Assembly: GCF_000006985.1 (NCBI RefSeq)
Contig: NC_002932.3
Span: 519,501-583,500 of the forward strand
DNA length: 64,000 bases
Source: Chlorobaculum tepidum TLS
Lineage (GTDB): Bacteria; Bacteroidota; Chlorobiia; Chlorobiales; Chlorobiaceae
Direction of reading: 5' to 3'
The first letter of the stretch is position 1, and every line of letters starts with the position of its first letter. The notes beneath the pieces are model-generated. The model had not been told where the DNA came from and did no database searches. It was given only the letters and a program-made list of their open reading frames with translations. This document shows, piece by piece, positions 27,135 through 56,091 of this stretch. Position numbers and translations under genes: made by a program.

Positions 27135-28349
27135 TCAGCACACCCTGAATTCTCCGTCGGCGAGCTTCTGGCAGAAGGCGTCGATCCCGTCGAGTTCCCG
27201 GTCGATGATGCTTGTGGCGCGACTTTGCAGCTCCGCCATGTTGGCACCAGGTTCGGGCGTGATGCGGGCCGAGGCCATAAGCGGCCGGTCAACCGGTTTG
27301 CCGATCTGGCTGCAGAGGAACACTGTCACCGACACGACTCCTTCGATTTCGCGGTGGATACGACGGGCAAGTTCATGGCTCAGGACATTGTAGATTTTGC
27401 CGACATGGTTGACCGGGTTCTTGCCGGCGGCCGCCTCCATCGTCTGGTTGCGGTTGAACGCGATGAGGCCGTTGACCCGGTTGCCACGACCTACCTGTCC
27501 GCCGTCACCTCCCTCTGCCGAGGTGCCGAGTACCGTGAGGTAAACTCCCTCCTCGCCGCGCGACGGGTCGTCGAGGCTGTTGATGTCGATTGCGACGGAA
27601 TCGATGTTGCAACTCTGGCTTTCGATGAAGGAAAGCAGTTCATGGCGCAATGCTGATTTTCGCTCGAAATAGTGATTCGCATTCGGGATAAAGCGATCAA
27701 CGAAAGCCACGGCCACCGTTAGTTGCAGCTTTCTTCCGTTGCGGCAGCCCATGATTTTGACGTCTTCGCCAGCTTCCGGGAACCGTTCTTTCAGTGCGGG
27801 GGAGTTGAGGAACTGCTCGGTGGCAAGCACGATGCGCTCGGTTTCGCTGAAGGGCGCATAGCCGACGCCGACCGAGGTGTCGTTTGCGCCGATCACCTTC
27901 CGGGCGAAGGCGTCAGTCAGTTCTGGTGAACCGGGCTTGATTTCGTTCTGGAAGAGCAGGTGCTGGTCGGGATCGACGAACCGCAGGTTCTCTCTGATCC
28001 AGCGCTTCGCGGCAGCCTCGGCGATTTCGCCCACCGGCACGAGCTGGCCGTTACAGGTATAGGTGGCGCGGTCGCCAAAGATCAGCTTCATCGGTTCGAG
28101 AATCATGCCGCCGCCGGTTTTTGGAAGGCTCCGGCCTGCCACGAGCAAGCCCTTGTCGATGTTGTGGTGGCAGATGTGGCCGAACCGGCTGTTGTACTCG
28201 CGGCACAGGTCGATGCAGACCGCCTCCATGATCGAATCGCAGATTGTGTCGGGGTGTCCGATGCCTTTGCGCTCGACCAGTTCGAATGGCTGCTGGTCCA
28301 TCGGAACGGCTTCGCTCCGCTCAATCGTGATGTTTCTTGGGACGCTCAT
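27135..28349 (-). CDS. mat: S-adenosylmethionine synthetase, archaeal type
   Basis: This 404-residue protein belongs to the archaeal-type methionine adenosyltransferases, which make AdoMet from methionine and ATP but share little sequence with bacterial MetK. The hallmarks are VERKGIGHPDTICDSIMEAV (split: KGIGHPDTICD, about 28-38), HHNIDKGLLVAG (about 61), GGDGGQVGRGNRVNGLI (about 287) and AAAGKNPVNHVGKIYNVL (about 312). Length and motifs are complete, so it is probably active. It stands alone on the minus strand. A bacterial metK may also exist elsewhere in the genome; that cannot be seen here. Confidence 0.93.
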   Translation of the reverse strand: MSVPRNITIERSEAVPMDQQPFELVERKGIGHPDTICDSIMEAVCIDLCREYNSRFGHICHHNIDKGLLVAGRSLPKTGGGMILEPMKLIFGDRATYTCNGQLVPVGEIAEAAAKRWIRENLRFVDPDQHLLFQNEIKPGSPELTDAFARKVIGANDTSVGVGYAPFSETERIVLATEQFLNSPALKERFPEAGEDVKIMGCRNGRKLQLTVAVAFVDRFIPNANHYFERKSALRHELLSFIESQSCNIDSVAIDINSLDDPSRGEEGVYLTVLGTSAEGGDGGQVGRGNRVNGLIAFNRNQTMEAAAGKNPVNHVGKIYNVLSHELARRIHREIEGVVSVTVFLCSQIGKPVDRPLMASARITPEPGANMAELQSRATSIIDRELDGIDAFCQKLADGEFRVC

Positions 28350-41320: not shown

Positions 41321-42254
41321 ACTCCTGATCGGCATCGCGATCTTCGGCATTCTGCTTGGCCTGGGTGCGGCTTTTTTCATGAAGCTTCGTCCGAAGTCGG
41401 AGCCGCCCGCCTTTACACCGGCGTCGAATCCCTACCGGAGCGGAATTTACGCCAACGGCATCATCGAGAGCGCACAGAAAAACGGCACGAACGTGAACAT
41501 CTACCCGGAAGTCTCCGGCACAGTGCTGAAGATTTTTGTTCACGAAGGTCAGCAGGTTAAAGCGGGCGAGCCGCTCTTGGCGCTCGACGACGCGGTGCAG
41601 CGCTCGACGACCGAATCGGCGAAGGCAAGCATCGCCGTCGCTGAAGCGACGCTCGCCAACGTGCAAGCGCAGTACGCAAAGCTGAAAGCCTCGTGGAATC
41701 TCGATCCTCGTTCGGTGAGCAAGGATGCGCTCGATACTGCCGCCAATGCCGTTCGTGCGGGGAAGGCGAGTCTTGAGCTTGCCCGCAAGCAGTACGATGC
41801 AGCCCGAGCGCTGCTTGGCAAATACACCCTCACGGCGCGCGAAGACGGTACGGTTCTGGCGATCAACACCTCGGTTGGGAGCTACATTTCCAGTCAGGGC
41901 GGTTACAACTCCTACACAGGAGGCTACGTGCCGGTCATCGTTATGGGGAACGCCGAAAACGCGCTTCAGGTGCGCTGCTACGTTGACGAAATTCTGATCC
42001 AGCGACTGCCGAAGCCCGACAGGATGAGCGCCATCATGTCAATCCGCGGTACCACGCTCAAGATTCCTCTGACATTCGAGCGGTTCGAGCCGAATGTCAC
42101 CCCCAAGATCGAGCTGTCGAGCCAACGCACCGAGCGGGTGGATGTCCGGGTGCTGCCGGTCATCTTCAGCTTCAAGAAGCCAGCAAACCTGACCCTCTAT
42201 CCCGGTCAGCTGGTCGATATTTACATTGGTGAACAGGCCGCGAAAAACCAGTAA
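41310..42254 (+). CDS. HlyD-family periplasmic adaptor (efflux fusion protein)
   Basis: From the ATG at 41310 (MRNKLLIGIAIFGILLG) the 314-residue protein has one N-terminal TM anchor (about 5-22), then a lipoyl-type half-motif (VSGTVLKIFVHEGQQVKAGEPLLALDD, split: KIFVHEGQQVKAGEPLL, about 70-86), a helical hairpin (about 93-165, KASIAVAEATLANVQAQYAKL) and a beta-barrel part after LTAREDGTVLAINTSVGSYIS. It would bridge the inner-membrane ABC parts and the outer-membrane protein. The start overlaps the ATPase stop by 11 bases. A longer frame from 41262 lies fully inside the ATPase and is less likely. Confidence 0.92.
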
Positions 42255-42258
42255 CCGG

Positions 42259-43728
42259 ATGAGAACCGTGTCGAAAAAGATCGCTTCACGCGGCGTCGTA
42301 CTGCTTGCCGTTCCCGCGCTTCTGCTGTCGGGATGCGCGGCAGGACCGGACTTCGTCAAGCCGGAGGCTCCGGCAGTCAAAAGCTACGACCAGCAACCAC
42401 TTCCGAAGCCGGTCGATGGCGGGCAGCGCTTTGACGAGGGCGTTGGACCTGCTGCATACTGGTGGAAATCGTTCGGTTCCACCCAGATCGACTCCATTGT
42501 CGAAGAGGGGCTGGTGGGTAATCCGGGCTTGCAGGCTGCCGAGGCAAGCCTCAAAGCGAGCCGGGAGAATCTCCGCGCCGGGGCTGGGATTTTTTATCCG
42601 CAGGCAAGTGCGACCTTTTCGCAGACGCGGGAAACTTCTTCGCCAGCCACGACAGCGGGCTCGGGCGCCATCGTTAACCTCTCGACCCTCTCCGCGTCAG
42701 TGAGCTATGCGCTCGACCTCTTCGGCGGGCAGCGGCGCAGCGTCGAGGCGCTCGGAGCGCAGGTGGACGTGCAGCGGGCGCAGACTCTCGGTGTGTACAT
42801 GACGCTGACTGGCAACATCGTTAACACGAGTATTGCCATTGCCGCCTATCGCGAGGAACTCGACGAGTACGAGCAGCTCATCGCCCTCGAAAAGGATCAG
42901 CTTTCGATAGCCACGAAGCAGTACCAGGCGGGTGTAGCACCCTACAGCTCCGTGCTGGCGTTACGGAGCCAGATTGCCTCGCTGGAGGCCTCCGTGCCGC
43001 CAGTCAGGCAGAAGTTAAGTCAGGCCGAGCACCTGCTTGCGACGCTTGCAGGAAAGACTCCGGGGGAGTGGGTGAGGCCCGATCTGCGCCTCTCAGGCAT
43101 TTCCCTGCCAGAGCGTGTGCCGCTCTCGCTGCCATCGGAGCTGGTGCGCCAGCGCCCGGACATCCTCGCCGCCGAAGCGGAGCTGCACGCGGCCAACGCC
43201 GAAATCGGCGTTGCCACGGCAGCGCTCTTCCCGAGCTTCACGCTCACTGGCAGTTACGGGCGCACGGCCAGCCAGCCGCATGAGCTTTCCGATCCACTCA
43301 ACCGATTCTGGTCAATTGGTGGCAACATCGCCGCGCCGATCTTCAACGGCGGCTCGCTCCGGGCCAAACGCCGGGCTGCGATCGCCACGCGAAACCAGGC
43401 GCTCGCGTTGTACCGCCAGACCGTGCTTGCCGCCTTCGCCCAGGTTGCCGACCTCATCCGCGCGCTTGAGCACGACGCACAGCAAGCCGAAGCCGAAAAG
43501 CAGGCGGTTGAGAGTGCAAAACTTTCGCTCGACCTCGTTCAGGCCAACTACAAGGCGGGCATGGTCAACTACGAGCAGGTGATTCTTGCTGACATTCAGT
43601 ACCGGCAAGCGAAAATCGGTTACCTGCAAGCCCGCGCTCAGCAACTGCAAGACACCGCCGCCATGTACGTCGCTCTTGGTGGGGGCTGGCCGCATGATGG
43701 GGTAGCGAGGGAGAAAGCAGGCTTGTAG
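42259..43728 (+). CDS. Outer membrane efflux lipoprotein (NodT/TolC family)
   Basis: A 489-residue outer-membrane channel protein. The N-terminus MRTVSKKIASRGVVLLAVPA with lipobox LLSGC marks a lipoprotein (Cys near residue 27). Two TolC/OEP repeats follow (about 75-270 and 290-475), with the family motifs FGSTQIDSIVEEGLVGNP, YALDLFGGQRRSVEALGAQV and RRAAIATRNQALALYRQTVLAAFAQVADL (shown in part). It starts four bases after the adaptor stop and completes the tripartite exporter. It is the last protein gene before a tRNA cluster on the other strand. Confidence 0.94.
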   Translation: MRTVSKKIASRGVVLLAVPALLLSGCAAGPDFVKPEAPAVKSYDQQPLPKPVDGGQRFDEGVGPAAYWWKSFGSTQIDSIVEEGLVGNPGLQAAEASLKASRENLRAGAGIFYPQASATFSQTRETSSPATTAGSGAIVNLSTLSASVSYALDLFGGQRRSVEALGAQVDVQRAQTLGVYMTLTGNIVNTSIAIAAYREELDEYEQLIALEKDQLSIATKQYQAGVAPYSSVLALRSQIASLEASVPPVRQKLSQAEHLLATLAGKTPGEWVRPDLRLSGISLPERVPLSLPSELVRQRPDILAAEAELHAANAEIGVATAALFPSFTLTGSYGRTASQPHELSDPLNRFWSIGGNIAAPIFNGGSLRAKRRAAIATRNQALALYRQTVLAAFAQVADLIRALEHDAQQAEAEKQAVESAKLSLDLVQANYKAGMVNYEQVILADIQYRQAKIGYLQARAQQLQDTAAMYVALGGGWPHDGVAREKAGL

Positions 43729-43751
43729 GGCTTGAGTGAGAGCCATAAAAC

Positions 43752-43794: not shown

Positions 43795-43871
43795 TGGTAC
43801 ACCCGAGAGGATTCGAACCCCTAACCTTCTGATCCGTAGTCAGATGCTCTATCCAGTTGAGCTACGGGTGC
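43795..43871 (-). tRNA. tRNA-Arg (anticodon ACG)
   Basis: Acceptor GCACCCG/CGGGTGT, discriminator A and an encoded CCA (43795-43797). The anticodon loop CTACGGA gives ACG, whose A34 is normally converted to inosine. T-loop GTTCGAATC and D-loop AGCTCAACTGGATAGAGC are regular. Confidence 0.96.
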
Positions 43872-43880
43872 ATAGTGTAT

Positions 43881-43904
43881 AAATCCCGACTTGTGCCGGG
43901 ATTT
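43881..43904. other. Hairpin between tRNA-Arg and tRNA-Glu
   Basis: AAATCCCG ACTTGTGC CGGGATTT is a perfect 8-bp stem between two co-oriented tRNAs. It has no T-tail, so it may be a processing or weak pause element. Confidence 0.4.
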
Positions 43905-43909
43905 ATACT

Positions 43910-43986
43910 TGGTAGCGTGTACGGGATTCGAACCCGTGATCTTCGCCTTGAGAGGGCGATGTCCTGGGCCACTAGACGAACACGCC
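43910..43986 (-). tRNA. tRNA-Glu (anticodon CTC)
   Basis: The acceptor stem GGCGTGT/ACACGCT contains one G-U pair at the end, discriminator A, and CCA is encoded (43910-43912). The anticodon loop CTCTCAA gives CTC. D-loop TCGTCTAGTGGCCCAGGACA is the glutamate type. Confidence 0.94.
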
Positions 43987-44009
43987 ATATTTTCTTACTC
44001 TGAATCAGC

Positions 44010-44086
44010 TGGTGGGCCCTGTAGGACTTGAACCTACGACCCAGCGATTATGAGTCGCTTGCTCTGACCAACTGAGCTAAGGGCCC
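44010..44086 (-). tRNA. tRNA-Ile2 (CAT anticodon, lysidine type)
   Basis: Acceptor GGGCCCT/AGGGCCC, encoded CCA. The anticodon loop CTCATAA reads CAT, which could mean Met, but the anticodon arm GCGACTCATAATCGC and the start GGGCCCTTAGCTCAG match known tRNA-Ile2 genes that TilS modifies to read AUA. I therefore call it Ile2, not elongator Met. Confidence 0.85.
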
Positions 44087-44164: not shown

Positions 44165-45439
44165 TCAGGAAAATTCCTGGTACTTCTCTCTCCTGATGTC
44201 GGCTCCGAGTGCTGTGAGTTTCTTCTCGATGGCTTCGTAGCCGCGGTCGAGATGATAGACGCGGAGCACCTCTGTGGTGTCTTTGGCAACCAGTCCGGCA
44301 AGCACGAGGCAGGCCGAAGCGCGAAGGTCGGTGGACATCACTTTGGTGCCGGTCAGCTCCTGCGGGCCGTGGACGAGCGCCCAGTTGTCCCTGATTTCGA
44401 TGTGCGCTCCGAGCCGGTTCAACTCCGGAATGTGGTTGAAGCGTTCGAGGTAGATGCGGTCGATGATGGTGCTGTCGCCGCGGGCCTGCGTCATGAGCGC
44501 CATCCACTGCGCCTGCATGTCGGTCGGAAACTCGGGATAGGGACGCGCGGTAATATCGACCGGATTGAGTTCGGCGGGTGCGGTGAGCGTCACCGAATTT
44601 CCGTTCGTCGTGACCGTGCAGCCGGACTGGCGGAATGCGTCGAGCACTGAGGCGAGCTGTTCCGGCGCGACGCTCGTAACGGTGACGCTGCCGCCGGTGA
44701 TCGCGGCGGCGCAGAGGAGCGTGCCCGCTTCGATGCGGTCGAAGATGTTTTCGAACTCAACCGCCTTGAGCTGATCGACTCCGTCAATGACGAGCGTTGT
44801 GGTGCCGATACCGTCGATCTTGGCGCCCATTTTCACGAGGAAGTTGCACAGGCATTCGATCTCCGGTTCGAGGGCGGCGTTGTCGAGAATGGTGGTGCCT
44901 TTGGCCATGACTGAGGCCATCAAGGCGTTGCCGGTTGCGCCGACTGACGAGATCGGAAAGTCGATGTGCGTGCCGCGCAGGCGTGAGCCGTTGACGCGGG
45001 CGTTGATGAAGCCCTTTTCGATGGTGACGGTCGCGCCGAGCTTTTCCATTACCATGATGTGCAGATCGACCGGACGCGGGCCGAAAGCACATCCGCCGGG
45101 CAAGGAGACCCTCGTGTGGCCGAACCGGGCGAGCAGCGGGCCAAGCACGTAGATCGAGGCGCGCATCTTCTTGACCAGCTCGTACGGAGCCTCGATGCTC
45201 TTCAGCTGACCGGTCGAGACCTTCAGCAGGTTATTTTCGAATGACGTTTCCGCACCGAGATAGTTGAGCAGCTGGATGAAGGTCCGGACATCCTTGAGAT
45301 CCGGGGTGCGATCAATGGCGAAGGTGCCATCAGGTGTCAACAGTGTTGCTGCGATGATTGGCAGCGCGGAATTTTTCGATCCTGAGGCGGGGATGGTGCC
45401 GCAAATCTGTTTTCCGCCCCGGATGACAAGCTTGTCCAT
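44165..45439 (-). CDS. murA: UDP-N-acetylglucosamine 1-carboxyvinyltransferase
   Basis: MurA adds enolpyruvate from PEP to UDP-GlcNAc, the first committed step of peptidoglycan synthesis. The 424-residue protein has the two-domain EPT fold, with [13 protein letters not shown] (Lys-Asn, about 19), the active-site loop [15 protein letters not shown] with the catalytic Cys (about 114; so likely fosfomycin-sensitive), and [19 protein letters not shown] (about 296). The ATG at 45439 ([11 protein letters not shown]) fits better than the TTG at 45448. It is monocistronic and divergent from the EnvC-like gene. Confidence 0.96.
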
Positions 45440-45597: not shown

Positions 45598-46128
45598 ATG
45601 CGAATGTTTTCCGGCAGCCGTTCCATACCAGTCTTCGTCATAAAGATTTTCTGCACCTGTTTTCTTTTTGTCCTCTCCGTTACCCTTTTGCCCGCGGCAG
45701 GCAGCGCTGCGAGTCCTGAAATGATCCGCATTACCCGCGAGCGCAACCGGGTCGAAAGCACGCTCAAAGATCTCAAAAAGCAGCTCTCGGAGTATCAGTC
45801 AAAGCTCAACAGCACCAAAAAGAACGAGCGCCGTTCGCTAGCTGAGCTGAACAACATCCGCAAGCAGATCAAGGTTTATGAACGTCTCATTGTCGAAAAC
45901 CAGTCGCTTCTGAACAATCTCGACAATCAAATCGAGCAGCTTCAGAGCCAGCTTCAGGAAAATCGAAAGACCTATCAGCATGTGTCATCTGACTTCCGGC
46001 AAGTGGTTATCGCGGCCTACAAGCATGGCGGAGACCGCGATGCCGAGCTGATGCTCTCTTCGGGGTCGGTCAATAGTGCGATTGTGAGAGCCAGATATTT
46101 GGGATTTCTTTCAGGGGCGGTCAGGTAG
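45598..46128 (+). CDS. EnvC-like protein, N-terminal part (ends at in-frame UAG)
   Basis: The 176-codon piece has a signal peptide (IFCTCFLFVLSVTLL, cut near AAS) and a long coiled coil (about 40-150, with RNRVESTLKDLKKQLSEYQ and QIEQLQSQLQENRKTY), as in EnvC-type activators of murein amidases. It ends RYLGFLSGAVR at a UAG (46126-46128) in a position where homologous proteins continue. The next frame starts at once in the same register (GTG 46129, VNDLRSSAQQ). So one CAG or similar codon seems to have become UAG. The piece alone lacks the catalytic-like M23 domain. Start from ATG 45598 or 45604; a TTG at 45562 is unlikely. Confidence 0.75.
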   Translation: MRMFSGSRSIPVFVIKIFCTCFLFVLSVTLLPAAGSAASPEMIRITRERNRVESTLKDLKKQLSEYQSKLNSTKKNERRSLAELNNIRKQIKVYERLIVENQSLLNNLDNQIEQLQSQLQENRKTYQHVSSDFRQVVIAAYKHGGDRDAELMLSSGSVNSAIVRARYLGFLSGAVR

Positions 46129-47040
46129 GTGAACGATTTGCGGTCGAGCGCACAGCAGATGGAGAGCAGCCGGGCGCAGCTTCAGCGGGTCTACCACGAG
46201 AAGGAGCTGGCAATGAAGAGCCAGCAGGAGCAGCTTCAGAGCTACTCCGCGAAAAAAAAAGAGAAAGAGGTGGTGCTCAGCGAGATTCAGAAAGACAAGC
46301 AAACCTATGCTGCCCGCATCACCGAAGTGCGCAGAAAGCAGCAGATCATGCAGAAAAAGATCGAGTCGCTGATCATGGCCCAGCAGGCGCTGATCCAGAA
46401 GGAGCAGGAGCGCGCAAGGCTGGAAGCTCTGCGGCGCCAGCAGCGTCTTGCCGAGGCCAGAAAGCGCAGGGAGGCCGAGCGGCGGCGCAAGGAGGCTGAA
46501 CGGCAGCGGGTTCTTGCCGAGCGGCGTGGAGAGGCTCCGGCAACAAAAGAACCGCCGCCGGAAAAGACGCTGCCGCCGGAGAAAGAGCCGCTGCCGGTTG
46601 TGCCCGACCAGACCGAGTCGGAAATCGACCGTGTTTCGGTTGATTTCGACCAGGGCGAATCACTGCCGTGGCCTGTCAACAATGGCGTCGTGGTGCGTCG
46701 CTTCGGTTCTTCGCTTGACAAGGAGCTGAACATCGTGACGGTTAGCAACGGTATCGACATTTCCGTACCGGTTGGTACGCCGGTCAAGTCGGTCTCTGGA
46801 GGCAAGGTGGTGCAGGTCGCCTACCTGCCTACCTTCGGGAATGTGGTCATCGTCCGCCATCCGAAATCGTATCTTACCGTGTATGCCAATCTTGGCCGCG
46901 TGTCGGTAGCCAAGGGTGAGATCATCCGCTCGCGCCAGTTGCTCGGTTTTTCAGCGGCCATGCCCGAAGGCGGTTCGACGGTGCATTTCGAGGTCTGGAA
47001 GGGTAAGGTCAAGCAGAATCCCCAGAAATGGCTCAGATAA
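46129..47040 (+). CDS. EnvC-like protein, C-terminal part with M23 (LytM) domain
   Basis: The 303-codon frame continues the coiled coil (MESSRAQLQRVYHEKELAMK; many Arg/Glu in about 95-145), then a Pro/Glu linker, then an M23/LytM domain (about 190-303: LPWPVNNGVVVRRFG, NGIDISVPVGTPVKSVSGGKVV, VIVRHPKSYLTVYANLG, VHFEVWKGKVKQNPQKWL). The zinc-binding HxxxD and HxH sets of active endopeptidases are incomplete (NGIDIS lacks the H; VHFEV keeps one His), as in EnvC, so it would activate amidases instead of cutting itself. Without the N-terminal piece there is no signal peptide. It is in frame with 45598-46128. Confidence 0.85.
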   Translation: MNDLRSSAQQMESSRAQLQRVYHEKELAMKSQQEQLQSYSAKKKEKEVVLSEIQKDKQTYAARITEVRRKQQIMQKKIESLIMAQQALIQKEQERARLEALRRQQRLAEARKRREAERRRKEAERQRVLAERRGEAPATKEPPPEKTLPPEKEPLPVVPDQTESEIDRVSVDFDQGESLPWPVNNGVVVRRFGSSLDKELNIVTVSNGIDISVPVGTPVKSVSGGKVVQVAYLPTFGNVVIVRHPKSYLTVYANLGRVSVAKGEIIRSRQLLGFSAAMPEGGSTVHFEVWKGKVKQNPQKWLR

Positions 47041-47053
47041 AAAGGAACGCATC

Positions 47054-47605
47054 ATGGGTTTGAAATGGATCTTCACGGCGCTCTTTTCCGTCCTGTTCCG
47101 CCCGGAGGTTTTCTGGAGCGATGCCCGCGAGCGCTTTCGGGAAGTCAATGCGATGAAGGATTACGCCGCTCCGGTCATTGCAATTGTCCAGTTCGTCAAG
47201 CTTCCGTTTATCGGCACGCCGCGAATGGCCATGCTGCTGGCGATCATCAGTTTCACGATCGATGTTGCCGTGCTCTACCTGCTGACCGGGGTGATGGACT
47301 CGGTGGCTGAAGCTGAGCGCTCCGCACCTGTGCAGCATGAGATCATGACGGCGCTGAGCTTTTCGCTGACTCCGATCTGGCTTGCTGAGCCGTTTGGCTT
47401 TGCTGGAACGTGGCGCTGGCTGTTCATTGCGGCGGCGCTTGCCTATACCGTGTTCATTTCACGCACCGGGTTACAGGCAATGCTCGGCAGCGACGAATCG
47501 GGCGTGGAGGCGTTTTCAGGAAAATCGGCTTTTCTGGTAGGCGCGATGGCGATGATCTCATCCCTGCTCCAGAACGGTCTTATCCGTTTTTTTATCTCTA
47601 TCTGA
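47054..47605 (+). CDS. Yip1-like multi-pass membrane protein
   Basis: A 183-residue protein with about five TM segments (PVIAIVQFVKLPFIGTP; MLLAIISFTIDVAVLYLLTG; HEIMTALSFSLTPIWLAEP; WLFIAAALAYTVFISRTG; LVGAMAMISSLLQNGLIRFF). The layout and the ALSFSLTPIWLAEP segment resemble bacterial Yip1-domain proteins, whose role is unknown. AAAGGA before the ATG at 47054 is a fair ribosome site. It follows the EnvC-like gene by 13 bases and precedes nadE by 10, so the three may be co-transcribed. Confidence 0.7.
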   Translation: MGLKWIFTALFSVLFRPEVFWSDARERFREVNAMKDYAAPVIAIVQFVKLPFIGTPRMAMLLAIISFTIDVAVLYLLTGVMDSVAEAERSAPVQHEIMTALSFSLTPIWLAEPFGFAGTWRWLFIAAALAYTVFISRTGLQAMLGSDESGVEAFSGKSAFLVGAMAMISSLLQNGLIRFFISI

Positions 47606-47615
47606 CTGAAAATCC

Positions 47616-48449
47616 ATGAAACCGCAAAACCTCCATTTCGATTACGGCTTGGTTGAAGCCATCCTGGTTCCTTTCATCCGCAACGAAATCAGGAAGTTCG
47701 GCTTCGGCTCGGTAGTGCTTGGCCTGTCGGGTGGCATCGATTCGGCGGTGGTGTGCGAGCTCGCCGTCCGGGCACTTGGCGTGGAGAATGTGCTGGCGCT
47801 GATGATGCCCTACAAGACGAGCAGTCAGGAAAGTCTCGATCACGCCGAATTGATGGTTGATCGGCTCGGCATACGATACGAGATCATGCCGGTGACAGAG
47901 GTGGTTGACGCCTTCTTCGCCACGCGTCCCGACGCCAGCCGTCTGCGGCGGGGCAACGTGATGGCGCGGTCGCGAATGCTCTGTCTCTACGACGTCTCGG
48001 CGCGGGATGGCTGCCTGGTGCTCGGCACGAGCAACAAGACCGAGCTGATGCTCGGCTATGGCACCATGTTTGGTGACATGGCCTCTGCGGTCAACCCTAT
48101 TGGCGACCTTTACAAGACGCAGATTTTCGGCCTCGCAAGGCACCTCGGCATTCCCGCGCCGCTCATCGACAAACCGCCATCCGCCGATCTCTGGGAAGGG
48201 CAAAGCGACGAAGCCGATCTTGGTTTTAGCTACGAGGAGGTTGACCAGCTTTTGTATATGATGCTCGAAGAGCGTATGGATCGTGATGCCATTCTCGCCG
48301 AAGGCATCGACTCAGCCTTCTACCAGCGAGTGCGCAGCATGGTGGTGCGGAACCAGTACAAGCGTATGATGCCCGTCATTGCCAAACTCTCCAGCCGCAC
48401 GCCAGGCATCGATTTCCGGTACGCGCGTGACTGGCAGGAGGTGCGGTAG
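47616..48449 (+). CDS. nadE: NH3-dependent NAD+ synthetase
   Basis: NadE amidates nicotinic acid adenine dinucleotide to NAD+. The 277-residue protein has the PP-loop [15 protein letters not shown] (about 34-48), [19 protein letters not shown] (about 136-154) and [16 protein letters not shown] (about 189). It lacks the glutaminase domain found in long NadE, so it uses free ammonia. The gene converges on nadB; nadA is at 58364. Nicotinate-nucleotide steps (nadC, nadD) are not in the window. Confidence 0.96.
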
Positions 48450-52711: not shown

Positions 52712-54196
52712 TCAGGTTTCGGATTCGTAGTATTCTGCCGGAATCATGTTTCCGACATTGAGCACAAGATAAGGGTCGAACGCTTTTTTTACACGCACCA
52801 TTTCCCTGATGCCTTTGCGGCCGTACATTTGTACCAGATATTCGCTCTTGAGTTTGCCGATGCCGTGCTCTGCCGACAGTGTGCCGCCCATCGCGAGCAC
52901 TTTCGAGACGAGCTGGCGGTAGAGCGTTTTGGCGCGCACGAACTCTTCGTGATTGTGCGGCAGAATGTTCAGGTGCAGGTGGGCGTTGCCGATGTGGCCG
53001 AAGATGATGTAGGTGAATCCCTCGCGGTCGCAGGCGTCGCGGTAGAGCCGGAACAGCTCGGCGAAGCGCTCGTCGGGCAGTGCCATGTCGGTGCTCACCT
53101 TGCTCTCCGACTGGCGGCTGAGCCACTCGTTGACCAGTACCGGCAGCTGGTGGCGGAAGTCGCGGAGCTTCTGCAACCCCTCGCTGTCGAGTGCCGCCCA
53201 GCTCTTCTCGACTGGCGAGCCGCACTGTTCCATCAGTTCCAGCCACGCTTCGAGGCAGGCCTCCTCGCGCTCGACGGTTGTCTCCTCCTCGAAATAGACC
53301 GCGCCCGCCATTTCCTTTGCAATGTCGGGATAGCTTTGCCGGAGAAACTCCAGCGCCCGACGGTCGAAGAGTTCGAGCGCGCGCGGGCTGACGCCGCCGC
53401 TTCCGGCGCGGGCCTCGCCGACGAAGCCGAGCAGTTCCTCCTCGCTTCTGAACCAGGCGAGGCAGGCAATCACCCGCTCCGGCGCGGGGCGCAAGAGCAG
53501 CGTGGCTTCGACGATGACGCCGAGCGTGCCCTCAGAGCCGATGAAGAGATCGACCAGATCCATGCCCGGCTTCGACCAGTAGCCCGCGTTGTGCTTCGAG
53601 GTCTTCGGCATCGTGTAATCCGGAAGCCGGAACGTCACGCGCCCGGCAAGCGGCAGGTCAAGTGTGAAGTTTCCCGCTGCGTCGGCGAGGTGCTGGCCGC
53701 GCGTGATCTCCAGCAAATCGCCCTGCGGCAGCGCGATTTGCAGTGCCTGCACGTGATTGCGCGTCGGGCCGTATTTGAGCGAGCGCGAGCCTGTGGAGTT
53801 GTTCGAGATGGTGCTGCCGATGAAGCAGGTTTTCTCGGTCGGATCGGGCGGATAGAACCAGCCTGCCGCCGCCGCTTTCGCCTGCACATCCTGCAACAGC
53901 GCACCGCCCTGCACGCGCAGCAGCGCTCGTCCGTCGATTGTCGGCTCGACTTCGCCGATGCGGTCGAGCTTCTGCATCGCAATTACGTAGTCGCCGAACG
54001 GGATCCGCGCGCCGGTGGTGCCGGTGCCGTTGCCCGCGATGGTGTAGCGGCGTCCGTCGGCGCAAGCTTCGCGCAACAGCGAGGCCACCTCCTCCGGCGT
54101 TTCCGGGAAAAAGACGCCCGGCGTCCAGCCGTTTTTCAGGTTGCTCGTGTCTTCGAGAAAGCCCGCAATGGCTGCTGGTTCATTTTTGAAGTTCAT
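52712..54196 (-). CDS. FAD-linked oxidase (GlcD/D-lactate dehydrogenase family)
   Basis: A 494-residue flavoprotein of the vanillyl-alcohol-oxidase fold. The FAD_binding_4 domain (about 30-210) has [21 protein letters not shown] (shown in part: [15 protein letters not shown]) and [18 protein letters not shown]. The C-terminal FAD-oxidase domain (about 240-485) has [17 protein letters not shown] (zinc/substrate His, about 410) and [18 protein letters not shown] (about 445). These suit oxidation of a 2-hydroxy acid such as glycolate or D-lactate. It starts by a one-base overlap with the mrdA stop (TGATG), so it is coupled to PBP2. RodA, often found there, is absent. Substrate uncertain. Confidence 0.9.
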
Positions 54197-56091
54197 CAGT
54201 CTCCACCCTCCAGATCGCTCTGCGGCGCAGTGCTGGTAGAGTCGATTGCTGTTTTCGCGGCGGGGCGTTTCGTGTTTAGCGAATCGTTCAGCTTTTTGAT
54301 TTTGGCGACAGCGGTGCTGTCGGCGCCCTGGGTTTTCGGCTTGTTCTTTTCGACGAGGTAGTAGTTTATCATCTCTCGGGCGATCGGCGCGGAGATGCTG
54401 CCGCCGAAACCGGCGTTTTCGACCAGCACCGCGATGGCGATTTTCGGGTGATCGACCGGCGCGAAGCAGATGAACCAGGCGTGATCCTTGCCGTGCGGGT
54501 TCTGCGCGGTGCCGGTTTTGCCGGCGACCGTCACGCCCGGCACCTGCGCCAGCGTGCCGGTTCCTTGCTGAACCACGCCCTGCATCGCCTCCTTGATGAT
54601 TCCGAAGGTCTCTTTCGAGATTGGCAGGGTGCGCGAGGCGTGATCGATCGGCACATAGATGCCGGTGCGCGTGTCGCGGTAGCCCCTGACAATGTGCGGT
54701 TGGTGCCAGGTGCCGTTGTTGGCGATGGTCGCTGCGTAGTTGGCCAGTTGCAGGGGAGTGACGCCGAGTTCACCCTGGCCAATGCCAAGGCTTACCAGAT
54801 AGCCTTTTGTCCAGCGCCCCTCGCCGTAGCGGCGGTTGTAGTACTCAGTTGTCGGCAACAGGCCGCGCCGTTCGCCCGGCAGGTCGATGCCCTCGCGCTG
54901 GCCGAATCCGAACATTTTGCCGTATTTGTCCCACGTGTCGAGGCCCACCTTGAGCATGAGCTGGTAGAAGTAGATGTTACAGGACTCGATGATCGCCTTT
55001 TTCATATTGACGATGCCGTGGCCGCGCCCGCCGTGGTCGTGGAAGATGCGTCCGCCGTAGTTCCAGCTGCCGGTGGAGATGATGGTGTCTTCGGGTTTGA
55101 TGACCCCCTCTTCAAGTCCGGCGATGGCCAGCACCAGTTTGTAGGTGGAACCCGGCGGATAGACGGCCTGGATGGCGCGGTTGAAAAGGGGCTTTTCAGG
55201 TGAAAGGGCGATTTCAGCCCACTCTTTTTTTCTGGTTTTGCCGTTGAGGATGTCGAGGTCGAAATCGGGTTCGCTGCACAGCGCCAGTACGCCGCCGTCT
55301 GAGGGGTCGATGGCCACCACCGCGCCGGGGTGACCGGTCGCCCGGAGCAGGTTTTCGGCAAGCCGTTGCAGGTGGGCGTCGATGGTGAGATAGAGATCGT
55401 TGCCTTTGACAGACGGGATGTCGTTCTTGCCCTCATTGTATTTTCCCATGAGCATTCCGAGCGGATTGACCAGCTCGTAGCGCACGCCCTTCTCGCCCCG
55501 AAGCTCCTCCTCGTAGATGCGTTCGAGACCGGAAAAACCGATCTTGTCGTCCGGCGTGTACCCCTTTTCAGCCAGCGTGTCGAGCTGCTCCTTGCTGACA
55601 TTGCGCAGGTAACCGAACAGGTGGGTTCCCCGGAACAAATCGCTGTATTTTCGCTTGTTCTCGATCTCGATGATCACGCCGGGCAATCGCCAGAGGTTCT
55701 CGCTGATGCGTGCCACGACGAACTCGTTCAGGTCGCGGTAGATGGTCGAAACGGCAAACGGACTGTAATCTTTCGCTTCGGCGACCTTCTCGTTCAGCTC
55801 ATCTACCGGAATTTCAAGCAGGTAGGCCAGGTACGGAATGCTCGATGCTCGCAGCTCGTTGGGGATGATCTTGAGGGTGTAGAGTGCCTGGTTTTCGAGG
55901 ACGGTTATGCCATTCCGGTCGATGAAATGGCCCCTCGGCGCCTGCTCCCAGATTCTGCGGATGCTCCCCGATCTCGAACTGATGTCGTCATGCTGGACAA
56001 TCTGGAGCCAGGCGAGACGAGCTGTGAAAAACAGGAAGACGGCTGCGATGAGGAGTATGGTCAGCTTGATTCCGCGCAAAAAATCGTCCAT
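54196..56091 (-). CDS. mrdA: Penicillin-binding protein 2
   Basis: PBP2 is the class B transpeptidase of the elongasome. The 631-residue protein has a cytoplasmic-to-TM N-terminus (IKLTILLIAAVFLFFTARLAW, about 9-29), a PBP dimer domain (about 50-220) and a transpeptidase domain with SxxK PPGSTYKLV (about 313-321), SxN ESCNIYF (about 368) and KTG GKTGTAQ (about 524). All catalytic motifs are intact. A Ser/Thr/Lys-rich tail follows. It lies directly after mreD (stop to start 3-4 bases), inside the mre run. Confidence 0.96.
   Translation of the reverse strand: MDDFLRGIKLTILLIAAVFLFFTARLAWLQIVQHDDISSRSGSIRRIWEQAPRGHFIDRNGITVLENQALYTLKIIPNELRASSIPYLAYLLEIPVDELNEKVAEAKDYSPFAVSTIYRDLNEFVVARISENLWRLPGVIIEIENKRKYSDLFRGTHLFGYLRNVSKEQLDTLAEKGYTPDDKIGFSGLERIYEEELRGEKGVRYELVNPLGMLMGKYNEGKNDIPSVKGNDLYLTIDAHLQRLAENLLRATGHPGAVVAIDPSDGGVLALCSEPDFDLDILNGKTRKKEWAEIALSPEKPLFNRAIQAVYPPGSTYKLVLAIAGLEEGVIKPEDTIISTGSWNYGGRIFHDHGGRGHGIVNMKKAIIESCNIYFYQLMLKVGLDTWDKYGKMFGFGQREGIDLPGERRGLLPTTEYYNRRYGEGRWTKGYLVSLGIGQGELGVTPLQLANYAATIANNGTWHQPHIVRGYRDTRTGIYVPIDHASRTLPISKETFGIIKEAMQGVVQQGTGTLAQVPGVTVAGKTGTAQNPHGKDHAWFICFAPVDHPKIAIAVLVENAGFGGSISAPIAREMINYYLVEKNKPKTQGADSTAVAKIKKLNDSLNTKRPAAKTAIDSTSTAPQSDLEGGD

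Follow-up and report, generated by a model that had tools for sequence, protein, structure and literature searches.

Within the 64,000-nucleotide stretch of the Chlorobaculum tepidum TLS genome analysed here (hereafter, the window), a gene resembling that for the amidase activator EnvC is interrupted by a single in-frame UAG. This raises the question of whether the gene has been lost, is still expressed in spite of the stop, or is broken only in the assembly. We consider it likely that the stop arose fairly recently, when a 3-nt deletion turned TCG AAG into TAG and inactivated this copy of a Chlorobiota EnvC-type amidase activator.

One reading frame with a single internal stop

The locus (genome positions 565098–566537) reads as one frame of 481 codons from ATG 45598 to a stop at 47038–47040, with TAG 46126–46128 as its sole internal stop. 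This bears out the initial annotation, in which the frames 45598–46128 and 46129–47040 lay in one register with only that TAG between them. The 5′ half has 176 codons and the 3′ half 303; with the base composition of the window, a random frame would stay open for 303 codons past a stop with a chance of about 1e-5. The parts of the locus are listed in Table 1.

Table 1 Features of the interrupted EnvC-type locus, in window coordinates
Feature	Position	Strand	Support
5′ half of the disrupted EnvC-type gene, ending at TAG: signal peptide, helix I of the coiled coil, hairpin carrying the two putative FtsX-binding stretches, and first ~19 residues of helix II	45598–46128	+	
In-frame TAG, net loss of CGA from ancestral TCG AAG (Ser-Lys)	46126–46128	+	Codon alignment with 29 orthologues, independent records, uniqueness of the deletion
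3′ half: remainder of helix II, putative restraining arm, proline-rich linker and degenerate LytM/M23 domain, without signal peptide	46129–47040	+	
Possible restart: AGGTGA Shine-Dalgarno match overlapping the stop, then TTG 46138 (300-aa product)	46127–46140	+	Duplex energy −12.4 kcal/mol
Second possible restart: AAGGAG, 6-nt spacer, ATG 46213 (275-aa product)	46201–46215	+	Duplex energy −10.3 kcal/mol

The intact gene encodes an EnvC-type protein

Residues 12–30 form a hydrophobic, signal-peptide-like stretch, a coiled coil runs from the 5′ half into the 3′ half, and the C-terminus is a Peptidase_M23 domain (Pfam E = 2.4e-21). In this domain, as in those of all relatives, Asn stands in place of the first zinc-ligand His (NGIDIS), and another residue replaces the leading His of HxH (TVHFEV). 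These features agree with the earlier description of a signal peptide and coiled coil upstream of the stop and a continued coil and degenerate M23 domain downstream. The two frames had also been taken for a single EnvC-type protein, and both sides of the stop together do align with uninterrupted orthologues. A profile of 18 intact orthologues matched solved EnvC structures over nearly their full length (8i6o, the best match, E = 4.3e-36, positions 44–459; 6tpi, E = 3.6e-22).

Modelled with AlphaFold2 (mean pLDDT 78, pTM 0.42), the read-through protein has long helices at 40–142 and 158–306 followed by a C-terminal beta domain, and the best PDB matches of the model by E-value were Vibrio and E. 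coli EnvC. The modelled LytM domain superposed well (TM 0.70–0.71, normalised to isolated EnvC LytM domains); superposition of the whole molecule was poor because the model does not fix how coil and domain are placed relative to each other. Since the downstream and upstream halves scored 41.4 and 23.6 bits, respectively, below the 270-bit cut-off of the NCBIfam EnvC equivalog NF008644, we name the protein EnvC-type rather than curated EnvC. The name reflects its signal peptide and long antiparallel coiled coil, an M23 domain without the catalytic zinc residues, full-length EnvC homology, and the presence in the genome of FtsX and an insert-bearing Amidase_3 protein as partners. By homology, the intact protein most likely has the function of EnvC and would bind FtsX and activate an amidase.

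Both partners are intact. FtsX retains its periplasmic domain (FtsX_ECD, 60.7 bits), and the only Amidase_3 gene in the genome is open over 601 codons, with AmiA, AmiB and AmiC as its best PDB matches across the regulatory insert (aligned from no earlier than query residue 5). The downstream machinery thus remains while its activator is broken. The genome has further M23 proteins, two of them MepM-like, and one short M23-like frame. HxxxD is kept in the two M23 paralogues at 1.88 Mb (HGGVD and HAGID), whose second motif reads HLD.

Among the genomes compared, the stop codon occurs only in C. tepidum and most simply reflects a 3-nt deletion

The initial annotation had proposed comparison with EnvC-like proteins of Chlorobiaceae relatives, which suits the host, a Chlorobiaceae genome. 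In this alignment the relatives were all open at the site and TLS alone had a stop. The gene had matches in all 40 related genomes searched, none with an internal stop and with identities to the TLS copy of up to 95%. A codon alignment of 29 orthologous loci from related Chlorobiota likewise contained no stop at the lesion, where TLS was one codon shorter than the relatives. The site reads GTC AGG TCG AAG GTG (V-R-S-K-V) in the four nearest relatives and GTC AGG TAG GTG in TLS; TCG AAG stands exactly at the site in 13 of the 29 orthologues, those four included. Given the relatives' TCG AAG and extra codon, the lesion is most simply a 3-nt deletion that turned Ser-Lys into a stop, and CGA is the only single 3-nt deletion that leads from TCG AAG to TAG. 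A CAG to TAG point mutation, as first suggested, does not fit these codons.

The intact state was confirmed in independent named records, among them MAG Chlorobi_01 (LUZT01000006), C. thiosulfatiphilum DSM 249 and Chlorobaculum sp. 24CR. A frame-disrupting lesion absent from all relatives, one mark of a pseudogene, is present in the TLS sequence. With every relative examined intact, the most likely event is an ordinary, fairly recent gene loss, and the TLS copy is probably a real, recent pseudogene produced by ordinary decay in a known family. The exact 22-mer of the lesion had no match in viral contigs, and the lesion is unreported as far as our literature search found.

The main rival is an error of sequencing or assembly, in which the gene is whole in the living strain and the 2002 assembly dropped three bases. 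Intact copies in all relatives and the TAG as the sole lesion in the frame are what such an error would give. Moreover, the lesion is seen in a single C. tepidum sequence, the Sanger-era (2002) TLS assembly. However, the lesion is a clean, in-frame 3-nt loss outside any homopolymer, which is not a typical Sanger error, and we regard an error as unlikely.

dN/dS is raised on the C. tepidum branch

Under a two-ratio codon likelihood model with five species, dN/dS on the C. tepidum branch was 0.347 versus 0.132 in the background (2dlnL 8.2, p = 0.004), and was also below 1 (p = 0.003). Taken separately, the halves gave 0.43 upstream (p = 0.13, not significant alone) and 0.32 downstream (p = 0.013). 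A stronger rise was seen in 2 of 49 control genes (~100 kb; ORFs chosen by codon usage). Against these controls the shift, though significant, is not extreme, and it is only suggestive of relaxed selection after the lesion.

A ratio that is raised yet below 1 is expected for a recent loss; as a rough estimate, if dN/dS had jumped from 0.13 to 1 at breakage, about the last quarter of the branch would lie after the loss. An assembly error would not raise dN/dS on this branch, so the rise argues mildly against error and modestly supports a real loss. The ratio still below 1 is nonetheless compatible with an error: with the frame otherwise perfectly open and dN/dS well below 1, a very recent lesion, a laboratory mutation and an error would look much alike.

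Several features of the surrounding window were recorded alongside these tests. Over 45598–48446, the C. tepidum branch is far longer than that of the nearest relative, MAG Chlorobi_01 (0.18 versus 0.005 neutral units in envC; 0.16 versus 0.04 in the next gene), a hint of a faster clock. The gene at 27138–28349 (− strand) has an open frame and a dN/dS of 0.29 versus 0.09 on the C. tepidum branch (2dlnL 15). Segments at 42250–42500, 43500–43750, 44250–44750 and 53250–55400 are 82–92% identical to the nearest relative (mostly <90%) versus 94–98% around them; such short diverged segments, for example inside murA, suggest mosaic homologous recombination. Between an outer-membrane-factor gene and murA are three tRNA genes, for Met, Glu and Arg (43798–44086, − strand).

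Gene decay does occur in this genome. The 102.5 kb examined were matched by 69 genes of the nearest relative, and one other of these was clearly wrecked in C. tepidum, a sensor-like gene (genome positions 590676–591487) with two in-frame stops and a frameshift, outside the window and ~25 kb downstream of the TAG. It is intact in the nearest relative (269 aa, L077:13955-14761). The remaining stop-bearing matches that we inspected lay in 5′ extensions of intact genes or in a frame that is probably not coding.

Readthrough and a functional two-cistron restart are improbable

Readthrough of the UAG, programmed or incidental, could yield some full-length protein and had been listed as an option in the initial annotation. 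The preserved register and a downstream half that is not badly decayed are compatible with it, but none of the 46 tRNAs has the CUA anticodon that recoding or suppression of UAG would call for (covariance model and ARAGORN typing of all tRNA genes found), and the stop occurs here in no relative. Near-cognate tRNAs normally read stop codons through at a very low rate, and we hold readthrough to be extremely improbable. A pattern search for suppressor tRNAs gave two matches, neither tRNA-like and fewer than in the reversed control.

Restart of translation had been proposed at GTG 46129, with a product lacking a signal peptide. Restart itself is plausible and the product would indeed lack one, as an N-terminal hydrophobic segment is missing from the downstream half whichever start is used, but by duplex energy TTG 46138 is the better site. 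Against a generic 16S anti-Shine-Dalgarno, used for all duplex energies, GTG 46129 is weaker (−7.8 kcal/mol) than both sites in Table 1. If ribosomes stopped at the UAG and restarted at TTG 46138 (or at GTG 46129 or ATG 46213), the resulting secreted stub and independently made LytM half might together keep some function. The strong AGGTGA match, 5 nt ahead of TTG 46138, and the remaining constraint on the downstream half (dN/dS 0.32) point in this direction; however, AGGTGA is present in close intact relatives as well, and the constraint is relaxed rather than kept. Without an N-terminal hydrophobic segment, the downstream half could not enter the periplasm by the usual route, and we judge such a two-cistron arrangement quite improbable. 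The nearest intact relatives share the residues encoded at AAGGAG/ATG 46213 (EKELAMK), so that site did not evolve for restart.

Predicted consequences of the break for the amidase system

In E. coli EnvC, the FtsX-binding sites are residues 114–128 and 141–160, the autoinhibitory arm 222–278 and the LytM domain 278–419 (PMC7668044). When the protein is aligned to 6tpi, the stop corresponds approximately to EnvC residue 161 (chain index ~129; the numbering has an offset of 33, if chain residue 386 is EnvC 419), just past the second FtsX-binding site. A secreted stub would thus keep both FtsX-binding stretches and have neither the arm nor the LytM domain; with helix II shortened, its hairpin would probably be unstable.

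By homology, the intact protein would be exported and held by FtsEX via its coiled-coil hairpin, with the helical arm keeping it inactive; on release, the degenerate LytM domain would activate the septal AmiA/B/C-type amidase. In TLS, FtsX binding is the most that the secreted stub could retain, and any LytM half that is translated would stay in the cytoplasm, leaving the amidase without an EnvC-type activator. We infer from this a loss of function that is recent and affects cell separation. It is highly improbable that the split is itself functional, with the stub acting alone (for example, as a decoy on FtsEX), the second frame made by stop-coupled restart, and the cells separated by a rewired FtsEX–amidase system without EnvC.

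If the knockout by deletion is real, the strain that serves as reference for the green sulfur bacteria is naturally mutant in EnvC, a point of relevance to studies of division, the envelope and outer-membrane vesicles, and its single AmiA/B/C-type amidase works without an EnvC-type activator or is activated otherwise. The OMV proteome paper PMC12285230 makes no mention of EnvC in its main text. If the stop is an error, the reference genome needs correcting. The general picture is unchanged by either outcome.

Comparison with known systems

The closest counterparts are the EnvC-type genes of other Chlorobiota, direct orthologues 75–95% identical to the TLS gene that differ in being uninterrupted and in having one extra codon at the site. 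The best profile match is to an EnvC-like protein (PDB 8i6o/8i6s) that we take to be from P. aeruginosa, the PDB table naming only a membrane-bound metallopeptidase; the gene there is intact and its host a gammaproteobacterium. M23 endopeptidases of the MepM/DipM type have the M23 fold in common with the C-terminal domain of the C. tepidum protein but keep the HxxxD of the zinc site, which is absent here. E. coli EnvC (PDB 6tpi, 4bh5, 8c0j; PMC7668044) shares with the C. tepidum protein the signal peptide, antiparallel coiled coil, helical arm and degenerate LytM domain, and the context is alike in that the C. tepidum genome also holds FtsX and an AmiA/B/C-type amidase. The C. tepidum gene differs from that of E. 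coli in being split by a UAG, in the low identity of its product, and in retaining the Asp and last His of the M23 site.
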